Below, piece after piece: positions 55,467 to 64,000 of a DNA stretch of 64,000 bases. Position 1 is the stretch's first letter; the number at the start of each line of letters is the position of its first letter. Origin of the DNA: Allobosea sp. LC85 (GTDB lineage: Bacteria > Pseudomonadota > Alphaproteobacteria > Rhizobiales > Beijerinckiaceae); contig NZ_JPKG01000061.1 in assembly GCF_000735605.1 (NCBI RefSeq), positions 62,001-126,000 on the forward strand, read 5' to 3'. The translations under genes and the position numbers were made by a program. The notes below the pieces were generated by a model. That model saw only the letters and a list, made by a program, of their open reading frames with translations. It made no database searches and was not told the DNA's origin.

Positions 55467-56693
55467 TCAGAGGTCCAGGACGAGACGGGCCGGGTCCTCC
55501 AGCGCTTCCTTGATGCGAACGAGGAAGGTCACAGCTTCCTTGCCGTCGATGATGCGGTGATCGTAGCTGACCGCCAGATACATCATCGGGCGCACGACGA
55601 TCTGACCGCCGACCACCATCGGACGCTCCTGGATCTTGTGCATGCCGAGGATAGCCGACTGCGGCGCGTTCAGGATCGGCGTCGACATCAGCGAGCCATA
55701 GACCCCGCCATTCGAGATGGTGAAGGTGCCGCCCTGCATGTCCTCGATCTTGAGCGCGCCATCGCGCGCCTTCTTGCCGAGCGCGCCGATTTCCTTTTCG
55801 ACGCCGGCAATGGAGAGCTGGTCGGCATCGCGAACCACCGGCACGACAAGGCCCTTGTCCGTGCCGACCGCGACCGCGATATGGTAGTAGTTCTTGTAGA
55901 CGATATCGGTGCCGTCGATCTCGGCATTGACCGAAGGGATTTCCTTCAGCGCCTGCACGCAGGCCTTCACGAAGAAGCCCATGAAGCCGAGCTTCACGCC
56001 GTGCTTCTTCTCGAAGACGTCCTTGTACTGGTTGCGCAGCGCCATCACGGCCGACATGTCCACCTCGTTGAAGGTGGTGAGCATGGCGGCAGTGTTCTGC
56101 GCCTCCTTGAGGCGGCGCGCGATGGTCTGGCGCAGCTTCGTCATCTTGACGCGCTCTTCGCGCGAGGCGTCATCGGGAGCCGACGGGGCGCGGACCTGCA
56201 CCGGAGCTGCGGGCGCAGCTGCAGCCGCCGAACCCGTCGCGATGGCGGCCAGCATGTCGCCCTTGGTGACGCGGCCATCCTTGCCGGAGGCCGCGACCTT
56301 CGCCGGATCGACACCGCTCTCGGCAGCGAGGCGCGCAACGGCCGGGCCGGAATCGGCAGCCTTGGTCGCGGGCGCAGCAGCGGCGGCCGGCGCAGCAGCA
56401 GGCTTCGGAGCCTCCGTAGCCGCGACGGGCTTCGCCGGAGCTGCGGCAGCGCCGTCACCAGCCGAGATCGAGCCGAGCAAGGCGTTGACGCCAACCGTCT
56501 CGCCTTCCTTGGCGACGATCTCGCCGAGCACGCCGGCGGTCGGGGCATTCACCTCCAGCGTGACCTTGTCGGTCTCGAGCTCGACCAGGGGCTCGTCCGC
56601 CTTCACGGCCTCGCCCGGCTTCTTGAACCATTTGCCGATCGTCGCTTCCGAGACGGATTCGCCGAGTGTGGGTACGCGGATTTCGGTCGCCAT
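55467..56693 (-). CDS. sucB: Dihydrolipoyllysine-residue succinyltransferase (E2 of 2-oxoglutarate dehydrogenase)
   Basis: A 408-residue E2. Residues 2-76 are a lipoyl domain with lipoylated Lys43 ([11 protein letters not shown]). An Ala/Pro-rich linker leads to the E3-binding domain ([29 protein letters not shown]). The acyltransferase domain follows, with the catalytic HRIIDG motif (His379, Asp383). It transfers the succinyl group to CoA. It begins 45 bases after sucA ends and needs lpdA downstream for E3. Confidence 0.97.
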
Positions 56694-56738: not shown

Positions 56739-59696
56739 TCAGGCCGCGAAGGCCTCGTCCATGAAGGCTGCGAGCTGGGCGGTATGCTTCGACATCAGGC
56801 CGGTCGCCGTCGCGGCAGAGGCCGGGCGCCCGACATAGCGCGGGCGTTTCGGCTTCGAACCGGCATGGCCCAGCACCCATTCGAGATAGGGTTCGACGAA
56901 GGTCCAGGAGCCCATGTTCTTCGGCTCCTCCTGGCACCAGACCACATCGGCGGCCTTGAAGCGTGCCAGTTCCTGCGCCAGCGTCTTCAGCGGGAACGGA
57001 TAGAGCTGCTCGACGCGCATCAGGTAGACGTCGTCGATGCCGCGCTTCTCACGCTCGTCGAGCAGGTCGAAATAGACCTTGCCCGAGCACAGCACGACCC
57101 GGCGGATCTTCGCATCCTTGACCAGCTTCGTCTCGGAGCGGCCGCGCTCGGCATCATCATGCAGCACGCGGTGGAAGGTCGAGCCCTCGGCCAGCTCCGA
57201 CAGGTCGGAGATGCAGCGCTTGTGGCGCAGCAGCGACTTCGGCGTCATCAGGATCAGCGGCTTGCGGAAGTCGCGCTTCAGCTGCCGGCGCAGGATGTGG
57301 AAATAGCTCGCGGGCGTCGAGCAGTTCGCGACCTGCATGTTGTCCTCAGCGCACATCTGCAGGAAGCGCTCGAGGCGAGCGGAGGAATGCTCCGGCCCCT
57401 GGCCCTCATAGCCATGCGGCAGCAGGCAGACGAGGCCCGACATGCGCAGCCACTTGCGTTCACCGGACGAGATGAACTGATCGAACACGACCTGCGCGCC
57501 ATTGGCGAAATCGCCGAACTGCGCTTCCCAGGCGGTCAGCGCGTTGGGCTCCGACAGCGAGTAGCCGTATTCGAAGCCGAGCACGGCCTCTTCCGAGAGC
57601 ATCGAGTTGATGACCTCGTAGCGCGACTGGCCTTCGCGGATGTTGTTCAGCGACGTGTGGCGGGCCTCGGTCTCCTGGTCGATCAGCACCGAGTGCCGCT
57701 GCGAGAAGGTGCCACGCTCGCAATCCTGACCCGAGAGACGCACGGGGTGGCCATCGAGCAGCAGCGAGCCGAAGGCGAGCGCCTCGGCGGTCGCCCAATC
57801 GATGCCCTGCCCGGCCTCGACAGCCTTGCGGCGATTGTCGAGGAAGCGCTGGATCGTGCGGTGGACGTTGAAACCGGGCGGCGTCGAGGTGATCTTCTCG
57901 GTGATCTCCTTCAGCACCGCTGCGGGAACGCCGGTCGCACCGCGGCGCGGGTCGTCCTCGTCGGCGCGGATCGCCTTCATGCCGGCCCAGCGCCCGTCCA
58001 GCCAGTCGGCCTTGTTCGGCTTGAAGGTCTGGCCGGCGTCGAACTCGATCTCGAGCTTGCCCTTCCAGGCCGCCCTCATCTCGTCGAACTCGCCCGGCTG
58101 GACCACGCCTTCGGCTTCCAGCTTGGTGGCGTAGAGCTCCAGCGTAGTCTTGTGGCCGCGAATCTTGCGATACATCAGCGGCTGGGTGAAGCCCGGCTCG
58201 TCGCCCTCGTTATGGCCGAAGCGGCGATAGCAGAACATGTCGATGACGACCGGCTTGTGGAATTTCTGCCGGAACTCGATCGCGATCTTGGCGGCGAACA
58301 CGACGGCTTCCGGATCGTCGCCATTCACATGGAAGACCGGCGCCTCGACCATCTTCGCCACATCGGACGGATAGGGCGAGGAACGCGAATAGCGCGGATA
58401 GGTGGTGAAGCCGATCTGGTTGTTGATGATGAAATGCACCGAGCCGCCGGTGCGATGGCCCTTCAGCCCGGACAGGCCGAGGCACTCGGCCACGACGCCC
58501 TGGCCGGCGAAGGCGGCATCGCCATGCAGCAGCAGCGGCAGCACCTTGGAGCGCTCGACGATATCGCCGAACTGGTCCTGCTTGGCGCGCACCTTGCCGA
58601 GCACGACGGGATCGACGATCTCGAGATGCGACGGATTGGCGGTCAGCGAGAGATGAACGTTGTTGCCGTCGAACTCCCGGTCGGACGAGGCACCGAGATG
58701 GTACTTCACGTCGCCCGAGCCCTCGACATCGTCGGGAGCGAAGGAGCCGCCCTTGAACTCGTGGAACAGCGCGCGGTGCGGCTTGCCCAGCACCTGGGTC
58801 AGCACGTTGAGACGACCGCGATGGGCCATGCCAAAGACGATGTCGCGCACGCCAAGCGCGCCGCCGCGCTTGATGATCTGCTCCAGCGCCGGGATCAGCG
58901 CCTCGGCGCCATCAAGGCCGAAGCGCTTGGTGCCGGTATATTTCAGATCGATGAACTTCTCGAAGCCCTCGGCCTCGACCAGCTTGTTGAGGATCGCCTT
59001 CTTGCCTTCGCGAGTGAAGGCGATCTCCTTGTCCGGCCCCTCGATCCGCTCCTGCAGCCATGCCTTCTGCTCCGGATCGGAGATGTGCATGAACTCGATG
59101 CCGATCGTGTTGCAATAGGTCCGCTGCAGGATCGCGACCATCTCGCGAAGCGTGGCGAACTCCATGCCGAGCACGTTGTCGATGAAGATCTTGCGGTCGA
59201 GATCGGCGTCCGTGAAGCCAAAGGCGGTCGGCGACAGCTCCTCGGGGTCCCTCGCCTGCTCGATGTCGAGCGGATCAAGCTTGGCGTGGAGATGGCCGCG
59301 CATCCGGTAGGCGCGGATCAGCATGATGGCGCGAACCGAATCGCGCGTCGCCTGCTGCACGTCGGAGGCGCTGAGCGTCGCGCCGGCAGCCTTGGCCTTG
59401 GCGCTGAGCTTGTCGCCGATGACCTTCTCGACCACGCCCCAATGGCCATCGAGCGCCGAAATGAGCTCGCCATTGGCGTGGATCGGCCAGTTCGGTTTCG
59501 TCCAGGATGCACCCTTGGCGTTCTGGATAATGGCCGGGCCATCATCCTTCAGCCCGGCGAAGAACCCGCGCCACTGCTCGTCGACCGAACTCGGATCGGC
59601 CTGATAGCGCGCATAGAGGTCCTCGATATAGGCCGCGTTGCCGCCATAGAGGAAACCCGTCTGCGCGAGAGCCTCGTTGATGTCCTGGCGAGCCAT
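56739..59696 (-). CDS. sucA: 2-oxoglutarate dehydrogenase E1 component
   Basis: A 985-residue thiamine-diphosphate enzyme. The N-terminal part has [21 protein letters not shown], then [20 protein letters not shown] and the ThDP-binding INNQIGFTT region. The C-terminal half has [20 protein letters not shown]. It decarboxylates 2-oxoglutarate and passes the succinyl group to E2. The length is normal for the family. A long hairpin lies between it and sucD upstream. Confidence 0.97.
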
Positions 59697-59767
59697 TGTC
59701 GTCCTGCCTTCTACCGTCGTCCTGCCCCGTTCCCGGAGCGTCTCATGCCGTCATTGCGTCTTAAGTA

Positions 59768-59793
59768 AGATGGCCGGGCTGGCCCGGCCATCT
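59768..59793 (-). other. Intercistronic hairpin between sucD and sucA
   Basis: AGATGGCCGGGC and GCCCGGCCATCT form a perfect stem with a two-base loop between sucD and sucA. No T-run follows, so it is more likely an mRNA processing or stability element, or a partial terminator, than a full terminator. Confidence 0.5.
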
Positions 59794-59807
59794 CGTCGCC
59801 TGGGCGT

Positions 59808-60692
59808 TCAGCCCTTCAACACGTCGACCAAGGTCTTTCCGAGGCGAGCCGGCGAGGGCGAGACCCGGATACCGGCCGCTTCCATCGCGGCGATCTTGTC
59901 TTCCGCACCGCCCTTGCCGCCGGAGATGATCGCACCGGCATGGCCCATGCGGCGGCCGGGAGGAGCCGTGCGACCGGCGATGAAGCCGACCATCGGCTTC
60001 TTGCGGCCGCGCTTGGCCTCGTCCTTGATGAACTGCGCGGCGTCCTCTTCCGCCGAACCGCCGATCTCGCCGATCATGACGATCGACTCGGTCTTGGGAT
60101 CGGCCAGGAACATCTCGAGCATGTCGATGAATTCGGTGCCCTTGACCGGGTCGCCGCCGATGCCGACCGCAGTGGTCTGACCGAGACCCTCGCGGGTGGT
60201 CTGGAACACGGCCTCATAGGTCAGCGTGCCGGAGCGCGAGACGATGCCGACCGAGCCGGGCTTGAAGATATTGGCCGGCATGATGCCGATCTTGCTCTGG
60301 CCGGCGGTGACGACGCCCGGGCAGTTCGGCCCGATCAGGCGCGACTTCGAGCCGGCGAGCGAGCGCTTGACCCGCACCATGTCGAGCACCGGGATGCCCT
60401 CGGTGATGCAGATGATCAGCGGGATCTCGGCGTCGATCGCCTCGCAGATCGCATCGGCTGCCCCCGGAGGCGGCACATAGACGACGGAGGCGTCGGCCCC
60501 GGTCGCATCGCGCGCCTCGGCGACGGTGTCGAAGACCGGCAGGCCGAGATGCAGCGCACCGCCCTTACCGGGCGAGGTGCCGCCGACCATCTGCGTGCCA
60601 TAGGCGATCGCCTGCTCGGAGTGGAAGGTGCCGTTCTTGCCGGTGAAGCCCTGGCAGATGACCTTGGTGTTCTTGTCGATCAGGATGGACAT
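59808..60692 (-). CDS. sucD: Succinyl-CoA synthetase subunit alpha
   Basis: A 294-residue alpha subunit. It has the CoA-binding [25 protein letters not shown], and the phosphorylated His251 in [15 protein letters not shown]. It converts succinyl-CoA, phosphate and ADP or GDP to succinate, CoA and NTP with SucC. In most bacteria it follows sucC directly; here a separate gene lies between (60712-61326). AGGAATG precedes the start. Confidence 0.97.
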
Positions 60693-60711
60693 TCAGTCAT
60701 TCCTATTGTGA

Positions 60712-61326
60712 TTATTCGGACGATTTGCTCGTTTCAACAGGAGCCGGCACAGCACCGCTTGCCGGAACTTGAAACTCGTAAACTCCGAAAATTGTTGTTT
60801 CACCGGACCTCAACTGCTGACGCTGAGCTGAGACCATACGAGTTACTTCATGAGGCTTGCTAACATCACCGGATACGACCCAGACTTGGCCAAAGGCCGC
60901 CGATGGCTGCGGCTCGCCCAGTCCAAGTTGGATACGAGCTGCTGAGACGACATCGCCCACGGACACCGCTTGCGCGTAGACTGAGCATCCATTCTGACGC
61001 CATCCGCTCCATTCGGGGCGGACGACCGCGATACGAAATCGCCCCGAGAAGAGTGGCTCCTCAAAGTTCCAATCGCGAACCTCGTACATTTCCGGGCGCT
61101 TCAGGTCGTCCGGATTAGCAACAACGCCACGCTGCCGACCCGATAGCTTGGGATCGCCCTTCCACGCTCCTGAACTGGCCATTTGCTCAGCAGCCACCAT
61201 CTGCGCTTCAGGCGTAGAAGGGGCAACGCAAGCCTGCTGAACAATCGCCACCACACGCTCGGCTACCGCGTCGGCATAAGCCGGCGCGGATACCAAAGAC
61301 AGCGCAAGGGTGGCGAAAGCCCGCAT
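60712..61326 (-). CDS. Unknown exported protein inserted between sucC and sucD
   Basis: A 204-residue protein with a Sec signal peptide ([18 protein letters not shown], cleaved before DAVAE). The mature part contains [46 protein letters not shown] and two cysteines (QQACVAPS and QNGCSVYAQ), and ends in a Pro/Ser-rich tail. No family is recognised. It fits between sucC (eight bases before its start) and sucD (19 bases after its end). Its base composition differs from its neighbours: 63 of 120 bases in 60721-60840 are G or C, against 37 of 60 in the sucC line 61921-61980. It may be a recent insertion. It has no apparent link to the TCA cycle. Confidence 0.6.
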
Positions 61327-61334
61327 GCCGTTTC

Positions 61335-62531
<1,197 letters not shown>

Positions 62532-62614
62532 GTGCTCGAATTCCTTGCGTGCGCTGGCGAGGGCGTCTGGAAGGGCGCGCCGCAGCGAGACTGCCGCGCA
62601 CCCCTCGCTCTATC

Positions 62615-63580
<966 letters not shown>

Positions 63581-63802
63581 CTAGTCCTTGTGCTTGCGCT
63601 GCGAGATGCCGGAGACCCGGCGAAACCGTGGGGTTCTTTGGCCCAAACAGGCCTTTTGCTGCAAGTCGTCTTGTTGCGATCACGGTCGGGCCGGAGGACG
63701 CGCGCCCTGGAAAACAGCCTTCACCTTTCTCGCCGTCAAATCAATGTCTTGCGCAATGCGCGCCTCGCGCGAGGCAGGAATAAGGCAGCGAAACCGTCAA
63801 TG

Positions 63803-63827
63803 ACAAATTACAGGAAATGTAATTTGT
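63803..63827. promoter_or_regulatory. Perfect AT-rich inverted repeat, candidate TetR operator
   Basis: ACAAATTACA and TGTAATTTGT form perfect 10-base arms around GGAAA. This is a strong operator-like palindrome in a GC-rich genome. It lies 226 bases upstream of mdh and 11 bases after the stop of a TetR-like gene. No T-run follows, so it is not a terminator. Confidence 0.6.
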
Positions 63828-63837
63828 AGCCCGATTT

Positions 63838-64000
63838 TCAGACGATGCCCGTCGCCAGCACGCGCAGGATGACCCTGATCAACGTTGCCAGCCGAAGGTC
63901 CACCGAAGCCTGCGGCACGTCCGCATCGAGCGCCAGCGCAGCAGGATGAATAAAGCGATGCGTGGCGTCGATGACGAAGGCGATCGCCCTGTCGCGATCG
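63838..64000 (-). CDS. TetR family regulator, C-terminal part (tentative)
   Basis: An open frame of 53 codons runs in from the window's end to a TGA at 63838. The translated end, AFVIDATHRFIHPAALALDA, followed by SVDLRLATLIRVILRVLATG, resembles the C-terminal helices of TetR regulators, where a Phe-His-Pro turn is followed by an Ala/Leu-rich helix. The upstream part, including the helix-turn-helix, is outside the window, so the call is tentative. A perfect inverted repeat lies just after its stop. Confidence 0.45.
   Translation of the reverse strand, partial: DRDRAIAFVIDATHRFIHPAALALDADVPQASVDLRLATLIRVILRVLATGIV

Follow-up and report, generated by a model that had tools for sequence, protein, structure and literature searches.

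A compositionally foreign gene for an exported-looking protein between sucC and sucD, at a junction reused by unrelated genes

The inserted gene and its operon

The genes sucC and sucD encode the two subunits of succinyl-CoA synthetase, and the locus described here raises the question of how a gene for an apparently exported protein came to lie between them, and what else may occupy that place in other genomes. The window, a stretch of 64,000 nucleotides (C61:62001-126000) of the 6.56-Mb genome G000, carries on its minus strand sucC (61335..62531, beta subunit) and sucD (59808..60692, alpha subunit), both identified above the cut-off of an NCBIfam equivalog (PRK00696.1 and PRK05678.1, respectively). 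The frames at 62615-63577, 56739-59696 and 55467-56693 are presumably mdh, sucA and sucB, and with these names, given by eye, the locus reads as an mdh-sucCD-sucAB cluster.

The inserted gene, referred to below as X, occupies 60712..61326 on the same strand, with its ATG at 61326 and its stop codon at 60712. It encodes a protein of 204 amino acids whose N-terminus resembles, by eye, a Sec signal with an AYA cleavage site; the putative signal peptide comprises residues 1-19 (61270..61326, minus strand), cleavage being expected after AYA (residue 18). X starts 8 nt past the sucC stop codon and ends 19 nt ahead of the sucD start. The first of these two minus-strand spacers, GAAACGGC (61327..61334), was compared with the empty junction of the closest relatives, G077 and G081, and probably derives from the former ribosome-binding stretch of sucD. 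The second (60693..60711) contains an AGGA motif, which we infer to be the new ribosome-binding site of sucD.

A consensus scan of 59600-63900 found no sigma-70-like or terminator-like sites on the minus strand, and X has the marks of an operon-internal gene, being closely spaced on the common strand with no promoter or terminator of its own seen in that scan. Because of the shared strand and minimal spacing, the sucCD transcript should carry X as well. The search for RNA elements gave nothing above cut-off, its only match being a sub-threshold isrO (21.3 bits against a cut-off of 42) that covers 59767-59856, where sucD ends.

The sequence-only reading of this locus had described an exported protein of no known family, inserted with minimal spacing and lower in GC content, and on each of these points the description holds. 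Composition was compared over 51 genes of the window, namely 50 picked by script and X. The GC content of X (0.588) is the lowest, all 50 other genes being higher. Its GC3, 0.57, falls below the median of 0.80 (one of the 50 genes is lower still) and below the 0.89-0.90 of the neighbouring sucC and sucD. The codon usage that the same reading had proposed to compare points the same way, since the codon-adaptation index of X is 0.406 against a median of 0.663 and no gene of the 50 falls below it. X is compositionally foreign.

Distribution in the genus and the edges of the insert

Convincing matches to X were found in two of the 67 congeners searched, G000 and G076, and a third match (G062, E 0.005) was judged to be chance. 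A wider scan of contigs confirmed a single locus, in UCLR01000032.1 (Rhizobiales bacterium isolate AFS094729), which appears to be that of G076. The G076 homologue has 210 amino acids, lies at the same sucC-sucD junction and is 65% identical to X in protein sequence. Between the two genes, identity at the first, second and third codon positions is 0.755, 0.794 and 0.495, and the estimates of dN and dS are 0.25 and 1.33 by NG86 (0.26 and 1.15 by YN00), corresponding to a dN/dS of about 0.19 (NG86). Judged from this pair of sequences, the protein is under purifying selection, and the low ratio together with the homologue at the same junction indicates that X is a real gene rather than a chance open reading frame.

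The dS of X exceeds that of all 12 frames compared between G000 and G076, a comparison that is rough, since highly expressed genes such as sucCD show lower dS. Eight of these frames are convincing orthologues with dS of 0.31-0.81, two others have 41-46% protein identity and dS of 0.97-1.00, and the remaining two are overlapping frames; sucC and sucD themselves give 0.31-0.43. Because X lies above every frame compared, a recent transfer of X from either of the two genomes to the other can be set aside. Among the genomes searched, no donor of X was found.

Both sucC and sucD were searched in 61 congeners, of which 59 gave a pair on one contig (G069 and G083 gave none, and the sucC matches of G068 and G071 were incomplete). 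The gap between the paired genes is at most 20 nt, stop codon included, in 50 of the 59, and the other nine carry an insert. In a comparison of the junction among close relatives, as the sequence-only reading had suggested, G077 and G081 were found to lack X and to have an intact, empty junction of 9 nt, GGAAAAACA, the sequence of which is common to both. On a tree of sucC and sucD from 37 genomes (a subset of the 61 congeners, seven of them with partial sequence; topology only), G000 groups with the empty G077 and G081, and G076 with the empty G024. As X stands on two separate branches, either two gains or one gain followed by many losses is needed.

Up to the insert G000 matches G077 and G081; it departs from them in the last codon of sucC (Ala to Gly), and the match resumes at the ATG of sucD. 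The ATG of X occupies the position of the former sucD ATG, behind what appears to be the old ribosome-binding stretch, and the edges of the insert, at the same site in both genomes, can be aligned between G000 and G076. Differences between G000 and G077 or G081 are no denser near the insert than further out, with one exception: in the nearest 100 nt of sucC there are seven differences from G081, and G077 and G081 also differ there at seven positions. No recombination tract is visible around the insert in these flanks. Short direct repeats at the edges, for which the sequence-only reading had proposed a search, did not emerge to any note, the longest exact repeat common to both edges being the 4-nt CTGA (counted with no shuffle comparison).

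The simplest reading of these data is that X was gained recently in the lineage of G000, because G077 and G081 are empty and because X has the lowest GC content and codon adaptation in the window. A gene present at the same place throughout the order with typical codon use, which would have spoken against acquisition, was not what was found: a two-sequence profile run against 397 genomes of the order gave a convincing match in G000 alone.

Occupants of the junction in the family and the order

The adjacency of sucC and sucD, which the sequence-only reading took to be nearly universal, describes most of the paired congeners well, but in wider surveys the two genes are often separated by other genes or lie apart. 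When 149 genomes of the family were surveyed, the junction was, among the matches listed, unsplit in 87 genomes and split or separated in 32 others, by a hand count that includes G000; G473 and G501 show both kinds of junction, and in G486 and G567 a contig end interrupts the locus. Among the matches listed for 327 genomes of the order, the same mix of unsplit and split junctions was seen. In six genomes (G494, G571, G587, G526, G304 and G487; loci L124-L128 and L138) there is no sucD within about 2 kb past sucC, so adjacency is no rule in the order. In three of these, G587, G526 and G304, sucC is followed by an open frame of 607-641 amino acids that looks, by eye, like a repeat (TPR-type) protein.

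The contents of the gap were read in two sets of loci, of 29 and 36. In many other genera of the order, unrelated small genes stand between sucC and sucD on the strand of the operon. Modules of a PIN toxin and a putative antitoxin, with PF01850 above cut-off, occupy the gap in G509, G520, G493, G549, G004, G514 and G527 (loci L079, L082, L084, L091, L064, L132 and L135), and modules that look decayed by eye are present in G503 and G078; among three antitoxins scanned, one was above cut-off (G520, DUF6364). A 4-OT-type tautomerase of 68 amino acids is found in the gap of G553 and G501 (by Pfam) and G467 (by eye), all of one genus, g149 (loci L087, L090 and L129); the G501 case belongs to a second copy of sucCD. 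DUF1579 proteins occur in G473 and G319 (by Pfam) and in G336, G365, G209 and G178 (by eye), the loci being L085 in G473 and L117-L121 in five genomes of another family, f36.

Further occupants are small membrane proteins or membrane and coiled-coil proteins, several exported proteins, and an RDD protein in G549. Some gaps of about 90-220 nt contain no clear open reading frame. At six loci of family f20 (L103, L105, L106, L109, L122 and L123) the spacer is 208-217 nt long with a GC content of 0.67-0.77 and no listed frame, and it is possibly a structured RNA or a repeat. The sucC-sucD junction is a reused slot inside a core operon.

Possible leftovers of the entry of cargo were sought by comparing 53 gaps of at least 60 nt with the 5' end of sucD and the 3' end of sucC, with 200 shuffles for each of the 106 tests. 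A decayed copy of the sucD 5' end lies upstream of the module in G004 (L064, about 523-580) and G078 (L068, about 641-700), its score being reached by none of the 200 shuffles in either case. Such a remnant is as expected if the module had arrived joined to another sucD start, and it may be a footprint of entry. The gap of G000 gave no such sign of sucD, since 109 of 200 shuffles reached its score. The gap of G509 (L079) matched the 3' end of its own sucC at a score of 31 against 30 for the best of 200 shuffles, which may be chance among 106 tests.

The family of X and its proposed route to the junction

Relatives of X were recognised among the exported proteins seen at other junctions. The protein of G493 aligns with X at an hhalign score of 55.5 (best of 30 shuffles, 1.0), and that of G544 more weakly, at 10.9 (best shuffle, 2.85). 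The exported junction proteins of G473 (0.19 against shuffles of up to 1.44 in one comparison, 0.25 against up to 1.3 in another) and G560 (1.17 against up to 1.2) were rejected as members. The alignment of X with the junction proteins of G076, G493 and G544, referred to as A2, was turned into a four-sequence profile. In the 149 genomes of the family this profile gave five matches at E of 0.01 or below, of which G000, G493 and G544 were already in the profile and the other two, G065 (E 0.0013) and G549 (0.0086), were judged to be chance. In 322 genomes of the order it again gave five, namely G000, G054 and three weak ones judged to be chance.

The match in G054 is the best new one (E 8.5e-6) and comes from another family, of which G054 is the sole genome searched. 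The search was blind to location, and the gene lies exactly between sucC and sucD. Homology is supported by an hhalign score of 83.5, where 40 shuffles reached 0.5 at most. Matches away from the junction in G153 (E 1.5e-4), G228 (5e-4), G259 (0.0032) and G270 (0.007) were considered chance; like those in G062, G065 and G549, they were rejected because they lie inside or overlap other genes, named by eye. All five recognised members (X and those of G076, G493, G544 and G054), from four genera and two families, are thus at the sucC-sucD junction, a count in which four were noticed at that place and only G054 was found blind to location. No convincing copy of X elsewhere came from the searches of the genus (67 genomes), the family (149) or the order (322 and 397). 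The profile searches scored some of the candidates in a genome (in G054, for instance, 9 of 17) and the two-sequence profile missed G054, so divergent or off-junction members may be overlooked.

By its sequences the family appears to be very divergent and fast-evolving. The mature part of X contains two cysteines, C33 and C114, both invariant in A2; in the five-sequence alignment, which adds G054, C33 is present in all five and C114 in four, G544 being without it.

As a member of a known family X was tried and rejected, with no match at cut-off in Pfam, NCBIfam, PHROGs or PADLOC and none among PDB chain sequences. Against Pfam-A the only hit was DUF2574, at 13.3 bits against a gathering cut-off of 27.5, and the other three members of A2 and the G054 protein gave nothing. 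The anti-phage defence models of PADLOC gave no family for X even with E as high as 1, nor any for the four A2 members. X had no match on plasmids, phages or viral contigs, nor had the relatives in G493 and G054 on plasmids. The nearest approach to a named family is that of residues 37-105 of the G493 protein to the NMCC_0638 family (lipo)proteins (NF047650), at a sub-threshold 12.7 bits against a cut-off of 28, a score given by one of the four A2 members; X and the G054 protein do not match it.

Structure prediction with AlphaFold2 reached a pLDDT of 39.7 and a pTM of 0.35 from two sequences, and 77.9 and 0.75 from the four of A2, where the five models span pLDDT 77.9 to 47.8. Foldseek returned nothing with an E of 0.001 or better. 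VIA-align placed START-like/helix-grip domains at Z of up to 5.2, a range common for this tool, the best being 3qsz (rmsd 7.0 over 99 residues).

With moderate confidence, X is read here as a probably periplasmic exported protein of a fast-evolving, junction-bound family, gained by recombination and expressed along with the TCA cycle. The lineage of G000 would have gained it after the split from G077 and G081, when an incoming sucC-X-sucD fragment recombined with the conserved ends of the resident sucC and sucD. Because these two genes are well conserved, a sucC-cargo-sucD fragment from another species could replace the junction; the crossovers would lie in near-identical sequence, and cargo on the same strand that leaves sucD a ribosome site would be tolerated. 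Among the matches listed outside G000, the flanks show 71-93% DNA identity to G081. By such exchange the X family could pass between lineages and still stay at a single address.

X would use the ribosome-binding stretch that formerly served sucD, the insert having supplied a new one for the latter. The protein is predicted to be made on the sucCD mRNA, to leave the cytoplasm through Sec and to be stabilised by a Cys33-Cys114 disulfide, and its amount would follow the expression of the TCA cycle. The likeliest kind of role is an accessory one in the cell envelope, of use in certain habitats but not in others; the repeated gain and loss would then be accounted for.

The idea in the sequence-only reading of a recent acquisition that uses a strong operon is therefore plausible for the G000 lineage, the gene being foreign and absent from G077 and G081. 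It is incomplete in that the cargo is more than just any gene in a strong operon, as the recognised relatives of X share the junction. Beyond that idea lie the reuse of this slot in a core operon and a family of proteins recognised nowhere else. A broader proposal, held more tentatively than the reading of X itself, is that the junction serves as an order-wide exchange slot in the TCA operon, with cassettes swapped by recombination in the end of sucC and the start of sucD, and that one exported family has become specialised to it, moving only as sucC-X-sucD and wiring an envelope function to TCA-cycle expression.

It is unlikely, though worth weighing, that the junction merely admits any small co-directional gene, so that X, picked up in passing and due to be lost, is unconnected with SucCD or the TCA cycle. 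The many unrelated genes in the same gap, the rarity of X in the genus and its foreign composition would all fit; the purifying selection between G000 and G076 does not, and unspecific cargo would not predict relatives at one address, including one found blind to location. Somewhat less probable still is an old residence, in which an ancestor of these families already had X at the junction and most lineages, G077 and G081 included, have since lost it. This could explain why G000 and G076 carry X at one site with edges that align, why its dS lies so far above that of sucC and sucD, and why members occur in two families. But many independent and precise losses would be required with 50 of 59 paired congeners empty, the empty sequence is identical in G077 and G081, and the GC3 of X would be odd beside its neighbours for a long-term resident. 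That X is a locally arisen, non-functional frame whose likeness to junction frames elsewhere is chance would fit the want of a family at cut-off in Pfam, NCBIfam, PHROGs or PADLOC and of a plasmid, phage or viral-contig homologue, but it is very improbable, being largely refuted by the dN/dS and codon-position pattern shared with a 65%-identical homologue and by remote matches well above shuffles.

Gene insertion into operons is reportedly a subject of The life-cycle of operons by Price et al. from 2006. A literature search on sucC-sucD insertions and operon insertion, with subscription journals largely outside its scope, gave, among the titles listed, none on this junction. As far as the accessible part of the source goes, existing operons are known to take in transferred or ORFan genes (PMC2259305). 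Such cases resemble X in being lineage-restricted, compositionally foreign genes inside a core operon; they differ in that unrelated genes across the order make repeated use of the one junction where X lies, between the two subunit genes of an enzyme, with one family recognised only there. For SAR11, the part of the source available describes gene indels as polymorphisms in syntenic core DNA, with purifying selection on the variably present genes (PMC2217521). X is similar in its presence or absence within an otherwise syntenic core and in the purifying selection on it, whereas the SAR11 indels, in that same part, fall at many core positions and X at one recurrent site with alternative occupants. 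The PIN-domain type II toxin-antitoxin modules share the slot in other genomes; unlike them, X starts with a Sec-like N-terminus and matches neither PIN nor antitoxin families.

If the slot reading is true, the junction would offer a clean natural system for the entry of foreign genes into a strong operon without breaking it, with toxin-antitoxin modules, enzymes, membrane proteins and exported proteins as occupants inside a central two-subunit enzyme. It would be unusual for a protein family to be recognised mainly by its genomic address, owing to the speed at which its sequence diverges. The family of X offers a testable lead to a possible link of the cell envelope with the succinyl-CoA synthetase operon.

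Two minor observations concern sucC. In G071 (G071:C20:530167-531302) the main sucC is split into two separate frames, neither of which covers query residues 272-289; a frameshift or a sequencing error may be the cause. In G000 (GGC TGA, window 61335-61340) and several other insert-bearing genomes sucC ends in Gly-stop; Ala-stop is the ending in G077 and G081 and wherever else an empty junction was printed, and G076 carries an insert yet has Ala-stop.
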